Assembly (NCBI RefSeq): GCF_002909235.1
Contig: NZ_PHQQ01000009.1
Location: 1-64,000, forward strand
DNA from: Arenibacter catalasegens
GTDB taxonomy: Bacteria; Bacteroidota; Bacteroidia; Flavobacteriales; Flavobacteriaceae
Direction: 5' to 3'
DNA length: 64,000 nucleotides
Under the pieces are notes generated by a model. It saw nothing but the letters and a program-made list of their open reading frames with translations. It did no database searches and was not told the origin of the DNA. The stretch's first letter is position 1, and each line of letters opens with the position of its first letter. The translations under genes and the position numbers were made by a program. Of the stretch, positions 7,965 to 59,692 are shown piece by piece.

Positions 7965-9887
7965 TTATTTACCAATAATTATAAAATCGCAACGTCTATT
8001 GGCCAAATGATCTTCATTGCTGCAGGGAACTCCGTTAGCACAATTATTGATCAAACGGGACTCACCATAGCCAATGGCACTCTCAATTCTTGAAGAATCG
8101 ATTCCCATATAAACGAGATAGTCTTGGGTAGATTTGGCCCTATCATTGGAAAGTGACAAATTAAACGCATCGGATGCCCTAGAATCGGTATGGGCCTCTA
8201 TCTTTATTTTAACATTGGGGAAGTCATTCATAAAGCTAACTATCTTGTCCAGCTCTGCCGCAGCTTTATATGTGATATTAAAGCGGCTCAGATTAAAAAA
8301 TATAGGATTCACCTTAACTTTTTCTACTCCGCCTTCGGTGACCACGAAACTTGAAAATGGGATTAGGGTAGTGCTATTTAGGTCTTTAAATAGGTTTGGT
8401 GAATCAGCATTGTCCACCGCCTTAATTTCTTGTTTGTATTCTAACTTTAAAAAAGCAAAAATATGATTGGTACTAGAGGATAACGCTACTTCAAAATTAC
8501 CTTGTTCATCGGTGCTAACTTCTGTAACCAGCTGTTTGTTATCGTCGTATACTTTTACAGTAACCCCCGGAACGGGCGCCTGGGTCATGTCATCTACAAT
8601 ATTGCCCTTATAAATCATCATTTCGGCCGATTCGTTAAAGGAATAAATATCGTCGTCCCCTATGCCATTGGCCCTGTTGGAAGAGAGGTAGCCAGTGTTT
8701 ACCGAGTCATTAATAATTAAGGCAAAATCGTCCATATTGGTATTTATGGGCATTCCCATGTTTTTAGGAATCCCAAAGTCATTGGTCGGCTCAATTTTAG
8801 ATTTAAAAATATCCAATCCTCCCAGTCCAAAATGACTGTCCGATGCAAAATAGAGGAATTGGCCTGTAGCAAAAGGAAACATTTCCCTACCCGGAGTATT
8901 AATGGTAGGTCCAAGATTTTTGGTAGGACCCAAGTCTCCATCTTCATCAATATCCACATAATAAATATCCGTCTCCCCAAAACCTCCGTACATGTTGGAG
9001 ACAAAGTATAATCGCTTCCCATCCTTAGTTAAAAAAGGATGCCCGAAAGAGTATTTGGGATTGTTGAATTTCAAGGAAACTACCCGAACAATGGAATCCC
9101 CCTCTACGTCTCCCCGTAAAATCTGCATATTGGAGAATCCTTTTGGGTTAAGCTGTAGCTTATTGCCCTTAAGATAATTTTGAGTGAAATAAACGGTTTT
9201 ATAATCGGAGGAATAGGTTAGGGTTCCTTCGTGAAAAGATGATTGAATGTTCTTATGGAATTTTTGTGCCTCGCCAAGCTTTCCGGTAGTTTTGTTCATA
9301 TCGGCTATTAAAATGGAAAGATAAGGTTGTTGGTTCCATGAATAATCGGCATCCTCGGAAAACTCCGAAGCGCGACTTGAGGAAAACACTATGGCGTCTT
9401 TGTAATACATTGGGGCAAAGTCGGACAGGGGCGAGTTAATTTCGGAATTGGAAATATTGAATTTGGGCGTGTCTGCCATAAGGCTATCCAAATATCTTTC
9501 CTGCTCCAAAATGGTGGCTAATTTCTGTTCATTGTAGCTGTAGTAGTCCTTTAAAACACTGTTGGCAACATCGTATTCTTTGCAGGCTTTGAGGCTTTGC
9601 ACATATTTGATAAGGGTTACTTCATCTACTCTTTTTTCCTTAATGGTATAAAATTTTTCGAACCAAATCTTGGCATTTTCATAATCATTTATACTGAAAT
9701 AACTTTCTGCCAACCGTTCTACAAATAGGGGTTTTGATTTTTTCTTTTTCGATTCTAGTTGTTGGTATAGCGGTATTGCCGCTTTAAAGTTTAAATTTTG
9801 AAAATGCTCATTGGCATCCGTTCTGGAATTTTGTCCCAAAAGGATATTATATAGTAATAATGTGAATATGGAAAATATAATTTTCAT
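7965..9887 (-). CDS. PorE-like T9SS OmpA-family protein (TPR-PD40-CRD-OmpA)
   Basis: A 640-residue protein from ATG 9887 (MKIIFSIFTLLLYN, signal peptide to about residue 20). Using the upstream ATG at 9923 would bury the signal. Domain order: TPR-like helices (about 25-130); PD40/WD40-like propeller blades (about 150-410) with repeats such as GKRLYFVSNMYGGFGETDIY and the paralogous YFASDSHFGLGGLDIF; a carboxypeptidase-regulatory-like beta domain (about 420-505); and a C-terminal OmpA peptidoglycan-binding domain with AHTDSRA and LSNDRA. This is the architecture of PorE of the type IX secretion system, which tethers PorP-type proteins to the cell wall. It lies 10 bases after the porP gene, in one operon with the type-B sorted protein. 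Confidence 0.9.
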   Translation of the reverse strand: MKIIFSIFTLLLYNILLGQNSRTDANEHFQNLNFKAAIPLYQQLESKKKKSKPLFVERLAESYFSINDYENAKIWFEKFYTIKEKRVDEVTLIKYVQSLKACKEYDVANSVLKDYYSYNEQKLATILEQERYLDSLMADTPKFNISNSEINSPLSDFAPMYYKDAIVFSSSRASEFSEDADYSWNQQPYLSILIADMNKTTGKLGEAQKFHKNIQSSFHEGTLTYSSDYKTVYFTQNYLKGNKLQLNPKGFSNMQILRGDVEGDSIVRVVSLKFNNPKYSFGHPFLTKDGKRLYFVSNMYGGFGETDIYYVDIDEDGDLGPTKNLGPTINTPGREMFPFATGQFLYFASDSHFGLGGLDIFKSKIEPTNDFGIPKNMGMPINTNMDDFALIINDSVNTGYLSSNRANGIGDDDIYSFNESAEMMIYKGNIVDDMTQAPVPGVTVKVYDDNKQLVTEVSTDEQGNFEVALSSSTNHIFAFLKLEYKQEIKAVDNADSPNLFKDLNSTTLIPFSSFVVTEGGVEKVKVNPIFFNLSRFNITYKAAAELDKIVSFMNDFPNVKIKIEAHTDSRASDAFNLSLSNDRAKSTQDYLVYMGIDSSRIESAIGYGESRLINNCANGVPCSNEDHLANRRCDFIIIGK

Positions 9888-9897
9888 AGGTCTTTGC

Positions 9898-10827
9898 TTA
9901 GAAAAATCTGGGTGAGCGGGCATTTGGCCCCCATCTTGGCATTAAATATTTGAGTATAATTTCGTGCGAACCCTGATTGTAATTACCAATATCGGATATA
10001 CTGTAATCATAAGAATAGCCCATGAAAAAGTTTTTAGAAATCTGAAACCCTGCCAAGGCACTGTAACTGTCCTTAAGTCTATGTGATGCTCCCAATGTAA
10101 ATGTTTGCAGGAAAAGTACATTAAGGGAGGCATCTATTGTTGGAGGTGCATTATCTATGGTCTTGACCAAAATAGACGGTTTTAGCTTTAATGAGGCAGA
10201 AAGGTCTATAACATACCCACCCATAAAATACACATGGTTGTCCCGGTGTATCAAGTTTTTATCGCTTTCTACATTGGATTGGTTTATGAGCATGTTGGGA
10301 ACTGAGAATCCGACATACCAGTTGTCGCTAAAAATATATATTCCGGCTCCTACGGCAGGTAGTGCATTGTAGTAATTGTCATAACTGAAAAGAATATCAT
10401 CTTGATCGTAATAACTACCCTTGGAATAGTCGACCTCAAAAAAATCGATTCCTGCATTTAAACCTAGTGACATTTTTACTTTCTTGCTGAGGTTTAGATA
10501 GTAGGAGAAAACGGCGTTGGAACTAAATTCGGTAGAAGGTCCAATATTATCTTTAAAGATATTAATGCCCAATCCAATTTTGTTATTGATGATACCAGAA
10601 ACGGTAAGTGCTTTAGTCTCTGGGGCACCATCGATTCCGATCCATTGGGCCCTATAGCTTAGAGTGGCATCCATACGGTTGTTTTCATTGACGTATGCCG
10701 GGTTTATAGTAGCAGTATTATACATATACTGGGTATATTGCGGCAGTTGTTGCGCCATAATTTCACCTAGGTTGATTAGGAGAAACAGTATAAGGAGCTT
10801 TAAGCTGATTTTTTGGGGGATCTTCAT
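9898..10827 (-). CDS. PorP/SprF family T9SS outer-membrane protein
   Basis: A 309-residue outer-membrane beta-barrel protein. Signal peptide about residues 1-25, followed by the diagnostic opening QLPQYTQYMYNTATINPAYV. Alternating amphipathic strands continue to the C-terminus, and a GYSYDYSISDIGNYNQGSHE segment is typical of the last strands. PorP/SprF proteins help carry particular type-B sorted adhesins to the cell surface and pair with PorE-like OmpA proteins. Here the adhesin-type gene is just upstream (25-base gap) and the PorE-like gene just downstream (10-base gap), which fits a dedicated secretion cassette. Confidence 0.92.
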   Translation of the reverse strand: MKIPQKISLKLLILFLLINLGEIMAQQLPQYTQYMYNTATINPAYVNENNRMDATLSYRAQWIGIDGAPETKALTVSGIINNKIGLGINIFKDNIGPSTEFSSNAVFSYYLNLSKKVKMSLGLNAGIDFFEVDYSKGSYYDQDDILFSYDNYYNALPAVGAGIYIFSDNWYVGFSVPNMLINQSNVESDKNLIHRDNHVYFMGGYVIDLSASLKLKPSILVKTIDNAPPTIDASLNVLFLQTFTLGASHRLKDSYSALAGFQISKNFFMGYSYDYSISDIGNYNQGSHEIILKYLMPRWGPNARSPRFF

Positions 10828-52062: not shown

Positions 52063-52674
52063 ATGCCATTCATAGAGGAAAGTGATTTATTAGAATTGCA
52101 TAAAGACATTGACAAGGCTCAAATTATAAATGAGCGTCTATTGGATCAAATTAAATACAAGAACAAGGAATTAAAGCGAAGTAAGATACAGCGAAATCTT
52201 TTTGGCAGTGTTACGGTGCTTTTTTTAATAGGTACTTTGGCCGTTTTCTCCTATAACGCCGGTTTTATTAGGTCATCCAATTTTGAAAACAGGAATAACC
52301 TTAGAAATAATCTCCTGGTATCTATAGATAGCTTGGATGTCATAAAAGCTAGAATTGATAATCTTAAAGAGCAGAATGAAGAACTTAGCTTGGTAAAGGA
52401 ATTTTATTTGGCCAAAAAGTTTTTGGATAAAGAAAAAATTTACTCTGTACAGGTTAAATCCTTTGTAGACAACAATATAACCCTTGCTTCAGAATCGCTT
52501 AGCAATACAATATTTGCAAAAGCAAATCCTTTTTATTCTTATTCCTTGGGTAATTTTGAAACCTTGGAAGAAGCTAGGTCTTTTAGGTTTCAATTGGTGA
52601 AAATGGGCTTTGAGGATGCCTTCGTAGCTTCATACAAAGAAGGAAAGCGTGTAGAAATAGAAGACCCGTATTAA
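52063..52674 (+). CDS. membrane-anchored SPOR-like protein
   Basis: A 203-residue protein: a cytoplasmic helical N-terminus (1-44), one transmembrane segment (about 45-65, FGSVTVLFLIGTLAVFSY), a periplasmic coiled coil (about 75-130), and a C-terminal SPOR-type unit of about 70 residues (YSVQVKSFVDNN ... YSLGNFETLEEARSFRFQLVKMGFEDAFVASY). SPOR domains bind denuded peptidoglycan at division sites. The SPOR unit here looks divergent. Its stop is one base before menA, so they are co-translated. Confidence 0.75.
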   Translation: MPFIEESDLLELHKDIDKAQIINERLLDQIKYKNKELKRSKIQRNLFGSVTVLFLIGTLAVFSYNAGFIRSSNFENRNNLRNNLLVSIDSLDVIKARIDNLKEQNEELSLVKEFYLAKKFLDKEKIYSVQVKSFVDNNITLASESLSNTIFAKANPFYSYSLGNFETLEEARSFRFQLVKMGFEDAFVASYKEGKRVEIEDPY

Positions 52675-54616: not shown

Positions 54617-55258
54617 TTAAATTAGACTTGTAGAACGTTCCATTTCCCTCAATTTAGTCAAGGCCTCCGATTTTGAGTTCACATTCAATTTTAAGTATAT
54701 ATTTTGAATGTGAAAATTTATAGTGCTTGGGGTAACATATAAATTATCAGCAATTGTTTTATAGGTTGCTCCCTGGCTTAAATGATCAATAATTTCGTTT
54801 TCCCTTTCTGAAAATGCGGCATATGATTTTCTTTGGAACATAGAAATTATTTTCTTTGCAATATCATTGCTTATGGTTGCCCCTTCGTATTTTATGGCAT
54901 TCAAGGCATGGTATAGACTGTTTATGTTTACTGGTTTTGTGAGATAGCCATTAGCCATATTTTTAAAGGCTTTTTTTACAGTCTCGAAATCACTTTCGGC
55001 ACTTATCATGATAATTTTAACCTTGGAATCCTTTTTCCGAAAGTGTCCAATTCCTTCAATACCACAACCTTCCGGCATAGAAACTTCGGAAACAATAATA
55101 TCAGGCAGGACATTGTCGTAATCCAGTAGAGCGTCCTTGACAGAAGCGTACACTCCTACAAGCGAATATTCTTTGTATGTTTCAAAATAATAGCTGTAAG
55201 CCTCGTGAAATGATAGATGGTTGTCTATTACAATAATTTTCAGAACATTGGATTTCAT
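54617..55258 (-). CDS. orphan NarL/LuxR-type response regulator with atypical receiver
   Basis: A 213-residue regulator: a receiver (about 5-122) and a LuxR-type HTH (about 145-208, SERENEIIDHLSQGATYKTIAD). In the receiver the phosphoacceptor position is Glu58 (IIVSEVSMP) where Asp is normal, and the acidic pair is Asp12-Asn13. The switch Ser86 and Lys108 (GYLTKP) are kept. It thus cannot be phosphorylated in the usual way and may be constitutively active, since Glu often mimics phospho-Asp. No kinase is nearby. The T9SS-like pair lies upstream on the same strand. Confidence 0.88.
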   Translation of the reverse strand: MKSNVLKIIVIDNHLSFHEAYSYYFETYKEYSLVGVYASVKDALLDYDNVLPDIIVSEVSMPEGCGIEGIGHFRKKDSKVKIIMISAESDFETVKKAFKNMANGYLTKPVNINSLYHALNAIKYEGATISNDIAKKIISMFQRKSYAAFSERENEIIDHLSQGATYKTIADNLYVTPSTINFHIQNIYLKLNVNSKSEALTKLREMERSTSLI

Positions 55259-56034
55259 ATATTTTGGGATTTGGGGAATTCTTTAATGCTTATCTTAATT
55301 TTGAATGGCCATGGATTACATGTGGAAACGTACGATACATATTCAAGTTGGTATGGAAAGTTTATTCTAAGGATATTCGGCGTAATTCAATTAAACTAAT
55401 AACTGATACTCCAAAGGGTCACTCTACTTATACCGATGCCATAACCTAGAAAGTCATTGATCCATATTTATAAAGGGGGGTAAGACGTAAATCGCCCTTG
55501 CTTTTTTGTAGGGATGATGTTATTTTCATGATTTGGGATTATGATTATTATTTCTGCTCTTACTCTTTTTGTTTTTTTAATTTTTTAAAATCTAAAATAA
55601 GTAGGTGGCATATTATAAGAGTGTAGGTACTATCTTAAATGTTTTGAGCCAGTTTCTGATTTTGATTATAAAACTTAAAATTTTGTTAATAAAAGTTAAA
55701 TATAGAATTTAATTTTATAAAATCAATATAAAAACGATGTATTTTCCTACAAAATAAAATTGACATGGTTATTATGAATTATTATTAAAAAAATACATGT
55801 TTTGCTGATATATTCTTATTCCATTTTTAATGGATTGAATATGAGTTATCTAGGGTAAATCGGTCATTTCATAATTATAGTGCTTCCCAAATGTTTTATA
55901 AAGCAAGTAAGGAAAGTAGGTGAAATCGGAATACTGTGGGCGGACAAAGGGTTGAGTAAATCCTTTTTGGCTCGGTCACTATTAGTAGTCCACTGTATAT
56001 ATCAATATCTAGACTGTTCGAATAGCGTTTTTAG
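55259..56034. other. long AT-rich intergenic region between regulator and PorP-SPOR gene
   Basis: 776 bases with no supported gene; the short plus-strand frames have no family likeness. It is very AT-rich at 55540-55860. A short inverted repeat (TTCGAATA / TATTCGAA, about 56016-56043) overlaps the stop codon of the next gene. No terminator or TAnnTTTG box I would stand behind. Confidence 0.5.
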
Positions 56035-57996
56035 TTATTCGAAGCGGTTATTTAGTTCATCCGCGTCTTCGTACAGATTCTCGGCTGTGACGGTATTGCT
56101 ATAAACTTGCATGATCCATTTGTCTTTTTGATACTTTCCATCCAAATCTGAAGTATATGCCATTTCGGCGTCATTTTTCTTATTGTAATCAGCTAAATAT
56201 ACATAGTATAGTCCATTTTCTTTATTGAAAAATTGCTTGGCACTTACGCCCTGTTGGCCTAAATCTTTTATAAATGAATCCACATTTTCTTTATTCTTAT
56301 AAACATTGGCTATCAAATAATAGCCCGATTTTACTCCAGCTATATCTGACTGTTGTTCCATTCTAATGGGCAATTTTGAGTATTCTTTGCGTTCGGGGTT
56401 ATTTATACGGTAGATTGTCTTTTCTTGAATATCGGCCACAGCGGTTTCATATTGTTCATTGTTTAATTTTTGCAGTTCCGGTTTCATGTTTTGTTTTATT
56501 TCGTCCTTTATGATGTGTACCAACATATTGAACCTTTTGTCAATCTCCCTCTTGTTCGCTGTCTCTAAAGAGTCCTGCCTTAAAATCAATCCATCCAATA
56601 TTAAGCGATTTTCATTAGCAAGGGTATTTTGACATATATCACTTTTTTCAGTCAAACCGCCATTACCAGTATTGCCAGTATTACCCGTATTAACAGTTAG
56701 ATTGATAATATGGTCATCTACGGTTTTATTTTTGACCAGTTCTTTTAATAGTAAATGATTTTCATATGCCAAGGAATTTTGACAATCACAATCATTATTT
56801 TCACTGGATAACCTAAGCATTTGGTTACCAGAACCATTTTTTTGAGGTACATCAACCGATGCCTGTTGGTTCTGGGAGGGAAGGCTTCTTTGTTCTGTTT
56901 CGCTCTTTTTTATTTTAGCGTTTAACTTGGCAATTTGCCCCTCATATCTCCTGGTTTGAACCTCCATTTTGTCATACTTGGGTTTTGAGGGCTTTTTGGA
57001 ACGGGAATTTCTGCGGTTTTTAGTATTGGCAATATAATTTCCTGGATAGGAAGTGTTGTTTTTGAAGGTATAAGCGAGCGTTATTTCATGATTCCAGCCA
57101 AGGCTAGCTCCATAATCCAAAAACTTCTTTTCAAATACATACCCGATAGATATCTTTTTGCTAAGATTAAAACCAAGACCTAGAGACAATCCATATCTGT
57201 TGTCCAAAGTGGTTTGCAACCAACCATATTCCGGGAGATCTAACAATACAGATCCTATAAAGGAAAAATTAGCCTCCTCCTTGCTGTGTACTTGTAAAAG
57301 TGGCATAATTCTGGCTTCGGAAAATAAACCTCCTCTAGCGTTCACTATATAGGTATATTGGAGGGAAGCTTTTATGGTTTTTTCGCTAAATTCTGTGACT
57401 ATACTATTGGTCGTTTGATTGTAGCTGAGTAGATTTTCCGCATATAAACCAAAATCAATTTGGCCTAATGATAGGGCAAGCCCAGGTTGAACGGTCAACT
57501 TGGTTTCTTTTCTGGCATCCAATATTTTAGGGTCATTCTCGAGGGCTATAACCCTGTTTTTATCTATCCCTTGGTTTATGTAGGTGATATTTACCCCAAA
57601 AGTCAATTTATTTTTCTTGCTTAGCTGTGTAGCGTTGGCGTAGTTGGCATTTAAACCAAATTCTTGCATAACCCCGTCCAAATGGGTATAGATCCCAAGG
57701 CCAACCGCCGCATTGTCATTGAGTTTGTTGCTATAACCTAAAAAATAATTTTGATTGTTATCAGCGAAGGTCGCATACTGGTTCCTGTGTAAGATATTAA
57801 GGTAAGATTTATTTTCCCTGACCAGTGAGAAGGCCGGATGAATTAAAAATCTATTGAAGACTAATTGGTTGTGATAGGATGTGGTTGAACTAAAGTCTGA
57901 ATTGGCTTCTTGACAATATATAGTGGTTTCGCAAAGCAGAATGCAAACAAATATAAGGAAGTATACCTTCTTAAAAGTGGCAACTCTGCAGTTCAT
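56035..57996 (-). CDS. PorP/SprF protein fused to a C-terminal SPOR-like domain
   Basis: A 653-residue exported protein (signal to about residue 28, ending TTIYCQ). Residues about 40-320 form a PorP/SprF-type barrel, with VFNRFLIHPAFSL near the start and GYVFEKKFLDYG and HEITLAYTF at the end. A long basic and Gln/Ser-rich linker follows, with two CQN(S/T)LA(Y/N)EN repeats (about 405 and 455) and a NTG tandem. A helical part and a SPOR-like unit (about 560-640, SGYYLIANVYKNKENVDSF ... YYVYLADYNKK) complete it. The fusion puts a cell-wall-binding domain onto the PorP protein itself. The SPOR call is by pattern only. Confidence 0.8.
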   Translation of the reverse strand: MNCRVATFKKVYFLIFVCILLCETTIYCQEANSDFSSTTSYHNQLVFNRFLIHPAFSLVRENKSYLNILHRNQYATFADNNQNYFLGYSNKLNDNAAVGLGIYTHLDGVMQEFGLNANYANATQLSKKNKLTFGVNITYINQGIDKNRVIALENDPKILDARKETKLTVQPGLALSLGQIDFGLYAENLLSYNQTTNSIVTEFSEKTIKASLQYTYIVNARGGLFSEARIMPLLQVHSKEEANFSFIGSVLLDLPEYGWLQTTLDNRYGLSLGLGFNLSKKISIGYVFEKKFLDYGASLGWNHEITLAYTFKNNTSYPGNYIANTKNRRNSRSKKPSKPKYDKMEVQTRRYEGQIAKLNAKIKKSETEQRSLPSQNQQASVDVPQKNGSGNQMLRLSSENNDCDCQNSLAYENHLLLKELVKNKTVDDHIINLTVNTGNTGNTGNGGLTEKSDICQNTLANENRLILDGLILRQDSLETANKREIDKRFNMLVHIIKDEIKQNMKPELQKLNNEQYETAVADIQEKTIYRINNPERKEYSKLPIRMEQQSDIAGVKSGYYLIANVYKNKENVDSFIKDLGQQGVSAKQFFNKENGLYYVYLADYNKKNDAEMAYTSDLDGKYQKDKWIMQVYSNTVTAENLYEDADELNNRFE

Positions 57997-58254
57997 CCAA
58001 GGGGAAATTTATGTTATGCCGATCATAATGTGTTCTTTATAATCATATATCGGGTATCTCTCTGTTAACTTGGATTATTCATTTAAAATTGACCACTAAC
58101 CTGGTCGGGGCTTCGGAAAATTAAACTTGATATAGTCCAAAAATAACAGAGGACCAAATTACAATTTTGTAGGTAAATTCCTACTGTTAATTTATCATAG
58201 GTTTGTGGTTCAAAAGGTGGCCTATTAATTTAAAGCCTACAATTGATGTTGGCA

Positions 58255-59535
58255 TTACTCTTCAAAGACTGTGTTTGAATAATTAATTTGTGAATTATCA
58301 TTGATAGATTCCAAAATATTTAATGGTCTTTTATCCAATAACCTTTCCTTTTTATCCTTGGAATAAGTGAAAGCTACCCGTTGAGGATTACTTTTACTGG
58401 CACCTCGATTAGACATAACGTACCCCATTCCGTTTTGTCCGGTTAGTAAAATTGAAAAGTCATCTTCAATACTATTAATGTTATTTCCTAGGTTGACAGA
58501 GGTTCCTACTTTTTTATGATCAACTTGCACCATGTACACATCAAGTCCACCAAAACCTTTTCGTCCTTCAGATGCAAAAACTAGGGAAGACCCCTCTATT
58601 ATCTTTGGATATAGGTCATTGTCGTCCGTGTTTACTTTTTGACCTAGATTTTTAGCTGTTCCAAATGAACCGTCTCTTTGAATGTCTGCCACGTATATGT
58701 CATACTTTCCAAAAGTTCCGGGCATATTAGAAGCAAAGAACAATCTTTTTCCGTCAGGTGAAACTGTTGGGTGAATGGCCGAGTAATGTTTGGGTACCAA
58801 TGCAACTTCTTTTATGTTTTCCCATTTCCCATTTACTTTATTAGCCTTGTAAATTCTGTGTACCAATTCCTTTTTGGAAAGGACCCCATATAGTGGTTTT
58901 GTATAAACGGCCTTGCTAAAATAAGCCGTACGGCCATCGTCAGTAATTGCAATTGGCGCATTGTAGGCAAACTTGAAATTTTCCCTAATCTCAATACTGG
59001 ATGCCGAATCATTTCCTAGACCCAAATCTTCTATTGTAAGTTCTTGTGTTGCTACAGCTTCTTGGCTCTGTTGAAAATTAAAATCTCGATATTTGCTTTC
59101 CTTACTATTTGTAGTGGTATTTGCCACAGGATTACCGTTTATTTGATAATCCACTTTAATTTGGGCAAGCCAATCTTTATCTTCGGAAGGACTTTCCAAG
59201 TTGGTAGATCTAATACTTTTAAGGGCAAAAAGATAACGTTCATAATAACTTGAACTTACCGTGGTATTAGCGGTTGCGTCAATTAATTTTTTATACCAAA
59301 ATGTAGCTTCTTGATAATTTTCTACCAAAAAGTTAGCATTGCCCAAGTCCTCAAATATTTCATTTTCTTTATATCCTAATTTAAGGAGTTGTTGATACTT
59401 ATCAGCTCTGTTGCTGTTTTCGTAACTATTAGGGTTGTCACGGCCCAAAGTCTTAGCTTCTTGTGCCGACATTGAACAGAAGAATAAGGTAATAATGCAG
59501 CCAATGACTCCTCTGAAATTAATGTATCGGTTCAT
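58255..59535 (-). CDS. TPR-PD40 exported protein lacking an OmpA domain
   Basis: A 426-residue exported protein (signal to about residue 24, ending MSAQ). TPR-like helices (about 40-115) precede PD40 propeller blades (about 190-400), including HPTVSPDGKRLFFASNM, GKYDIYVADIQRDGSFGTAKNLG and FASEGRKGFGGLDVYMVQ. These are close in style to the PorE-like protein at 7965, but there is no regulatory-like domain and no OmpA module. It precedes the PorP-SPOR gene by 258 bases on the same strand. Together they look like a PorE/PorP pair with the wall-binding domain moved to PorP. Confidence 0.85.
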   Translation of the reverse strand: MNRYINFRGVIGCIITLFFCSMSAQEAKTLGRDNPNSYENSNRADKYQQLLKLGYKENEIFEDLGNANFLVENYQEATFWYKKLIDATANTTVSSSYYERYLFALKSIRSTNLESPSEDKDWLAQIKVDYQINGNPVANTTTNSKESKYRDFNFQQSQEAVATQELTIEDLGLGNDSASSIEIRENFKFAYNAPIAITDDGRTAYFSKAVYTKPLYGVLSKKELVHRIYKANKVNGKWENIKEVALVPKHYSAIHPTVSPDGKRLFFASNMPGTFGKYDIYVADIQRDGSFGTAKNLGQKVNTDDNDLYPKIIEGSSLVFASEGRKGFGGLDVYMVQVDHKKVGTSVNLGNNINSIEDDFSILLTGQNGMGYVMSNRGASKSNPQRVAFTYSKDKKERLLDKRPLNILESINDNSQINYSNTVFEE

Positions 59536-59692
59536 ATTATTGGATATTGGGGTGTTATACGAAGCAAAGGTCTTGAAATTTGTAGGAATAGTTATTAGTA
59601 ATATTTCATAGGTTTTTATATTTCGAGGCTGATTTCTACCTAATTAGGATATGATTGGGTTTACTTTATGCACTTGATTTTCTAGTATTTCA

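Follow-up and report, generated by a model that had tools for sequence, protein, structure and literature searches.

The DNA analysed here, referred to as the window, is a 64,000-nucleotide stretch of Arenibacter catalasegens (Flavobacteriaceae; contig NZ_PHQQ01000009.1, positions 1 to 64,000). It contains on its reverse strand, in transcriptional order, genes encoding a PorE-like protein with a PD40 propeller and no OmpA domain (the PD40 protein), a PorP/SprF barrel protein with a SPOR-like end (PorP-SPOR) and a NarL-type response regulator, which together with their orthologues elsewhere are called the trio. The features of the locus are listed in Table 1. Our results indicate that this three-gene unit is real and conserved, and that it resembles a side branch, under separate control, of the type 9 secretion system (T9SS) and gliding machinery. 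The surprise lies in how constantly the unit is associated with a kinase-less regulator that has a local operator, and not in the domain fusion.

Table 1 Features of the trio locus, in transcriptional order (window positions).
Feature	Position	Strand	Basis
Operator-like site ACCTATGAAATATTACTAA, conserved ahead of the PD40 gene	59595..59613	(-)	
TTTG of a Bacteroidota-type -7 promoter box	59565..59568	(-)	
426-aa PorE-like protein without OmpA	58255..59535	(-)	ORF (open reading frame), Pfam, NCBIfam, model, fold search
Second, weaker operator-like site CTATGATAAATTAACAG, 204 nt ahead of the PorP-SPOR start	58184..58200	(-)	
653-aa PorP/SprF barrel with SPOR-like end	56035..57996	(-)	ORF, Pfam, AlphaFold2
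Long intergenic stretch ahead of the regulator gene	55259..56034	(-)	
213-aa NarL/LuxR-type response regulator, receiver and GerE helix-turn-helix (HTH), Glu58	54617..55258	(-)	ORF, Pfam, alignment

The 653-residue protein consists of a barrel (residues 39-311), a helical linker with the motif C403-D-C405 plus C455, and a SPOR-like domain at about residues 557-632. The barrel matched PorP_SprF (PF11751) over residues 39-309 with 179.7 bits (cut-off 22.3) and TIGR03519 with 147.2 bits (cut-off 90.55), and the end matched SPOR (PF05036) over residues 557-613 with 28.0 bits (cut-off 21; 30.4 in a genome-wide search), so that both Pfam cut-offs were passed, as expected from an earlier sequence-only reading that described a PorP/SprF barrel fused to SPOR. 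AlphaFold2, run with 21 aligned relatives, predicted the barrel, a low-confidence helical linker and a β-α-β-β-α-β arrangement over about residues 558-632, with a predicted local distance difference test (pLDDT) of 71-87 in ten-residue blocks between residues 551 and 630; the SPOR-like fold proposed for residues 560-640 was indeed found in the model. Foldseek with the whole model returned outer-membrane barrels, among them chain F of the T9SS translocon (8gl6_F at rank 4 and 6h3i_F at rank 11), which we take to be PorV. No solved structure matched the protein in a sequence search.

The 426-residue protein begins with a hydrophobic stretch that looks like a signal by eye, followed by TPR-type helices (about 35-130), a disordered region (132-193), a TolB-like β-propeller (about 203-390) and a short tail. 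PD40 was matched with 40.5 bits (cut-off 20.9), and no OmpA or carboxypeptidase-regulatory match was detected by Pfam at E≤1. The predicted model likewise comprised helices, a disordered stretch and a propeller with TolB as its closest fold, and a sequence search of solved structures gave weak TPR, All3320 and TolB matches. These data agree with the previous description of a PorE-like neighbour: the protein has the TPR and β-propeller parts of PorE and lacks its OmpA-type peptidoglycan-binding domain. The regions ahead of OmpA in CHU_0125-type and PorE-type OmpA proteins (NF053607 and NF052230) align with it, but its scores of 142.4 and 132.6 bits stay below the respective cut-offs of 620 and 600. 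Because its best coverage by NCBIfam spans only positions 61-405 of the 639-position CHU_0125_OmpA model, the protein ends before the C-terminal part of that model. A truncated or decaying PorE was ruled out by the conservation of the OmpA-less form in 56 of 397 family genomes and in 66 aligned copies, 61 of which are 375-440 residues long and none of which extends more than three residues beyond the C-terminus of the window protein; the TPR part is missing in two (273 and 282 residues). Elsewhere in the window the usual division was found by Pfam, as had been claimed, with PorP only at 9898-10827 and PD40 with OmpA at 7965-9923. The same genome also encodes a 904-residue PorE-type protein that combines SPOR (37.4 bits), PD40 and OmpA (contig C5; L106, 9170-11884).

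The conservation of the unit was surveyed in 397 Flavobacteriaceae genomes from 237 genera. The OmpA-less PD40 protein was present in 56 genomes belonging to 34 genera; the regulator was present in every one of these and in three others, 59 in total. An order-wide sample of 395 genomes, partly overlapping the family survey, contained the PD40 protein in 10, all in the same family, and a first comparison set of 60 relatives showed the orthologue pair in 11 of its 17 same-genus genomes (Arenibacter, from named loci) and in three other genera. When the 56 survey loci were read together with 10 further Arenibacter loci, PorP-SPOR lay directly downstream of the PD40 gene in 58 of the 66, which agrees with the suggested linkage of the barrel and PD40 genes. 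In 64 of the 66 loci the regulator gene shares their strand; the two loci without a linked regulator are one in which a contig starts just downstream of PorP-SPOR and one with the regulator on another contig. Thus the earlier suggestion that the neighbouring atypical regulator could belong to the pair was borne out. It is not a loose neighbour, as it forms the constant part of the unit with the PD40 gene, and PorP-SPOR is the part that may be missing. Apart from the trio, no neighbour family was widely common, occurring in at most 14 of the 54 non-Arenibacter loci when ORFs of at least 100 residues were counted. An 851-residue gene upstream occurred in 3 of 14 loci, and one other locus (L089) ends too near to tell.

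A quick tree, in which some branches in other parts are long, placed the trio PorP-SPORs in a single clade of 58 rows with a Shimodaira-Hasegawa-like approximate likelihood ratio test (SH-aLRT) value of 100. Orthologous PorP-SPORs located elsewhere were considered for eight genomes without a linked copy and rejected, as the 14 placed rows (eight of an unlinked type and six of the eight sprD-type copies, weaker matches being off the tree) all fell outside this clade. The gap between PorP-SPOR and the regulator gene measures 441-1033 nt in all 56 loci with both genes, and little sequence was common to 15 aligned gaps. A structured RNA in this gap was rejected as well, the only match being one below the gathering threshold, to a microRNA family.

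The regulator shares its receiver and GerE HTH with NarL/LuxR-type response regulators. It differs from them at the phospho-acceptor site, where Glu replaces Asp in 61 of 63 regulators (64 aligned, 63 with a residue there), and in having no linked kinase family: none was conserved beside the gene among ORFs of at least 100 residues at the 54 non-Arenibacter loci. Lys108 is invariant across the aligned regulators, as is much of the HTH. Asp is retained in three regulators that lie outside the unit; genes judged kinase-like by eye adjoin two of these. Of the two marks of a two-component response regulator, the trio copies mostly lack the phosphorylatable Asp and have no conserved neighbour that would be the cognate kinase, though a kinase encoded elsewhere may exist. 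Glu at the acceptor site can mimic phosphorylation. In one Arenibacter genome (L088, 11770-12409) the regulator gene is in two overlapping pieces, probably owing to a frameshift.

Most loci have a 19-base site some 78 nt ahead of the PD40 start. The exact 19-mer occurred within 300 nt upstream of the PD40 gene in 47 of the 66 loci, against a mean of 0 in 20 shuffles, and 42 of the 56 survey genomes with the module carry it at that gene. Of these 42 sites, 38 are located 20-150 nt ahead of the called start; the other four lie at or just past a start whose call is probably displaced in the upstream or downstream direction. The A. catalasegens genome contains one exact match, at 59595-59613, plus one with a mismatch; a control pattern written backwards also gave two matches there at up to one mismatch. 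A TTTG fitting the consensus of the Bacteroidota -7 promoter box follows at constant spacing in 49 of the 53 sites of full length, and the centre of the site would lie near -45 if transcription begins about 7 nt after the box. Allowing up to two mismatches, the palindrome CTATGA-N5-TCATAG was present before the PD40 gene in 28 of 66 loci (shuffle mean 0.8) and before PorP-SPOR in 13 of 58 (shuffle mean 0.6), 11 of the 13 being from Arenibacter; a loose form of the 19-mer upstream of PorP-SPOR in 6 of 58 is among these second-site matches. An inverted repeat GTARG...CYTAC noticed by eye in the spacer of the first two genes was dropped in favour of the countable CTATGA palindrome. From the co-occurrence of site and regulator, the operator-like site may be bound by the regulator.

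The domain fusion is not new by itself. Among the 12 PorP places in the genome, two besides the 653-residue gene end in SPOR-like repeats according to a profile built from the trio copies. One of them, a 696-residue protein on contig C8, narrowly passed the Pfam SPOR cut-off when the protein was scanned (23.8 vs 21), and the other, on C14, remained below it; a genome-wide Pfam SPOR search returned only four places without the C8 and C14 genes, which speaks for a more singular fusion. This C8 gene is in the sprD position (L009); PorP and SPOR above the Pfam cut-offs were also combined in one protein from another family of the order (L053), and our own profile added PorP-SPORs in two more families (L052 and L116). 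A fusion unique to this locus was therefore ruled out. Since other PorP-SPORs exist, the SPOR end has probably not moved to PorP from the PorE partner, as the sequence-only reading had proposed for the cell-wall anchor, and probably belongs to an older PorP-SPOR lineage.

The C8 gene lies between a gene for a 755-residue protein with a type-B domain below the cut-off and a giant type-B gene (open frame of 5127 residues); after the latter comes a PorP whose tail contains a C-x-C. The arrangement matches the operon order sprC-sprD-sprB-sprF (PMC9723704). The place of sprD in this operon is thus occupied by C8:83674 and not by the 653-residue gene. The tree branch next to the trio clade contains sprD-position genes and the related unlinked type. 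The C8 protein has the PorP/SprF barrel and SPOR domain above the cut-offs like the trio protein; in contrast to the trio, type-B genes adjoin it, it has two SPOR-like repeats by our profile, and neither a PorE-like partner nor a regulator was seen beside it. By the same profile, and not by Pfam, a terminal SPOR-like repeat was also seen in a 672-residue OstA-like/LptD_N protein of this genome (C67; L107, 10170-12188). The window itself encodes a 203-residue protein at 52063-52674 with a SPOR match below the cut-off (18.2 vs 21), which is 94-99% identical in ten other Arenibacter loci.

For the SPOR domain of RlpA, contacts to denuded glycan by Gln270 and three Arg have been described (PMC6895207). 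In the trio protein Ile562 stands at the Gln position and Tyr598 and Tyr600 at those of two Arg, all three being invariant in 58 of 58 trio copies (the Gln mapped by profile position, the Arg by eye from YRVRI to YYVYL, and the third Arg unmapped). Similarly, all 12 aligned PorP-SPOR segments have Ile or Val and Tyr or Phe at the glycan-contact positions. YRIQV and YRVRI are retained in a canonical SPOR protein encoded by this genome (L223). Another of its SPOR proteins (L224) is also without the Gln, so the contact residues may be dispensable in this phylum. A profile of the 12 segments matched no solved SPOR structure by sequence. The end of the barrel protein thus has the SPOR profile match and fold without the residues for denuded-glycan contact. 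As judged from these sequences, the changes weaken the case for cell-wall binding by the SPOR end, and in particular for the binding to denuded septal peptidoglycan suggested before.

SprF has a barrel and a C-x-C in its periplasmic C-terminal part that bonds to Cys343 of GldK (PMC12635249). The C-x-C by which this SprF-type attachment to the track is recognized is present in the 653-residue protein and in all 12 Arenibacter PorP-SPOR copies. Whereas the SprF motif is close to the end of a short tail, this one is located in a long linker, and a third cysteine (455) is present. The GldK of the genome contains Cys278 and Cys334, the latter being the equivalent of Cys343 as judged by spacing only. 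One PorP-SPOR copy from outside Arenibacter has tail cysteines without a C-x-C. Three further PorPs of the genome have a C-x-C tail, two of them adjoining giant type-B proteins: the SprF-like PorPs on C8 (L006) and C15 (L007) have an identical NCRCTY tail and stand beside type-B frames of 5127 and 3393 residues, possibly representing two giant adhesin systems. The third (C21; L016, 9697-10689) ends in a CKC tail and adjoins no type-B domain.

Genes for type-B cargo commonly cluster with PorP genes (PMC10202324). In all, 9 of the 12 PorP places in the genome have a type-B domain beside them, two through matches below the cut-off, and such a domain adjoins the PorP-PorE pair elsewhere in the window (C82:10862-11131, TIGR04131, 60.1 bits). 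In contrast to these loci, the trio has no clustered type-B cargo, as was already apparent to the sequence-only reading and was upheld by the type-B domain search. Six of the 15 type-B places in the genome lack an adjacent PorP (C1, C12, C23, C25, C59) and are possible cargo candidates for unlinked carriers.

We consider the chances about even that the trio is a separately regulated, SprD-class outer-membrane carrier for unlinked cargo. In such a unit, the 653-residue PorV/PorP-like barrel would accept and display type-B T9SS cargo encoded elsewhere, and its long periplasmic linker and SPOR-like end would serve as a tether or docking arm in the periplasm. The 426-residue TPR/propeller protein would bind the periplasmic face of the barrel, as PorE binds PorP, and, having no carboxypeptidase-regulatory and OmpA parts, it could not itself grip the cell wall by way of OmpA. 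The regulator, with Glu for Asp and no conserved adjacent kinase, would probably work without phosphorylation and switch the unit on by binding the palindromic operator near -45. In Arenibacter, the only group among the copies read to have the linker C-x-C, this motif may connect the carrier with the moving GldK track through a disulfide, as it does in SprF.

Among the described systems close to the trio are the PorE-PorP-cargo complexes of Porphyromonas gingivalis (PMC9143113). Like the trio, the PorP-PorE-PG1035 complex pairs a PorP-type barrel with a TPR/propeller periplasmic partner. In P. gingivalis, however, the peptidoglycan-binding OmpA is on PorE, whereas in the trio the PorE-like protein is without OmpA and a SPOR-like end is on the barrel; moreover, the trio has a regulator attached and no linked cargo. 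The same paper proposes that mobile adhesin carriers are without PorE and immobile ones are held by PorE. The trio mixes both types: its PorE-like partner is without the wall-binding part, and its barrel has a periplasmic arm and possibly, in Arenibacter, a connection to the track. The arrangement was not found described in the literature searched, which covers few subscription papers and in which only the CHU_0125 paper bears on the topic.

Several observations weigh against an unlinked-cargo carrier. No type-B domain stands beside the 653-residue gene, none of the 15 type-B places is at the locus, and no cargo was identified for this carrier. The models have middling confidence (mean pLDDT 60.7 for the barrel and 62.0 for the propeller). 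In 8 of the 66 loci the regulator directly follows the PD40 gene without PorP-SPOR, so that the core of the unit may not be a carrier. Asp occupies the acceptor site in 2 of the 63 regulators, the exact site at the PD40 gene is missing in 14 of the 56 survey genomes, and the palindrome precedes the regulator gene in only 1 of 64 loci (shuffle mean 0.2). The C-x-C is present in none of the 46 non-Arenibacter trio copies; confined to Arenibacter in this way, it looks like a lineage-specific gain.

The loci without PorP-SPOR could point to a unit that signals envelope status, in which the PD40 protein and the kinase-less regulator form the core, PorP-SPOR is an optional outer part, the folding or occupancy of a barrel/propeller complex is reported inward and the regulator adjusts its own operon. 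The joint presence of PD40 protein and regulator in 56 of 56 genomes, the nearly invariant DNA-binding half of the regulator and the single exact 19-mer in the genome, which makes the control look local, would all fit. However, neither a kinase family nor an inner-membrane component is conserved next to the trio, and no link is known between the regulator, which looks cytoplasmic, and the PD40 protein, which looks periplasmic; such a unit is unlikely. Alternatively, the trio could be an ordinary second SprD-type gliding accessory that helps a gliding adhesin in trans, with a regulator that only times expression. This would agree with the sprD-position genes in the neighbouring tree branch and with the listing of SprD as a gliding requirement (PMC11885536), although spr mutants retain limited gliding on some surfaces (PMC9870892). 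It is nevertheless unlikely, as the trio copies form a separate clade with their own PorE-like partner and six of the 17 same-genus genomes have an sprD-type gene and no trio.

Another possibility concerns the operator: the palindrome could be the site of another regulator while the linked response regulator controls other genes. Site and regulator are tied by co-occurrence only, and the 19-mer occurs somewhere in 11 of 338 regulator-less genomes. The backward control, however, occurs in 24 of the 338 genomes and in only 2 of the 56 with the module (hand counts; 27 of 397 overall), as against 42 of the 56 with the true site at the PD40 gene, and the exact site is unique in its own genome; a different regulator is therefore possible, if somewhat doubtful. 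As to the SPOR end, the score of 28.0 against a cut-off of 21 and the matching predicted fold would suit a carrier held at septal, denuded peptidoglycan, as first envisaged, but with Ile562, Tyr598 and Tyr600 replacing the RlpA contact residues in every trio copy while the L223 control keeps its Gln and Arg, this is improbable. The carrier reading itself can be extended to a self-contained envelope module, in which a Glu-locked, kinase-less regulator is dedicated through a local operator to one carrier and its OmpA-less partner and the Arenibacter C-x-C wires that carrier to the gliding track; we advance this extension tentatively, as unlikely to hold in full.

If that extension is true, a single barrel would possess both a SPOR-type arm and a track link. 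On the carrier reading, the T9SS/gliding family would include a carrier unit that has a regulator to itself, one that probably needs no phosphorylation, and the PD40 and regulator genes of this unit are present in about one in seven of the sampled family genomes (56/397). The trio would also provide natural tests of whether SPOR-like ends on PorP carriers bind the cell wall at all and, because orthologues with and without the motif exist, of whether a C-x-C is in itself enough to put a carrier onto the GldK track.

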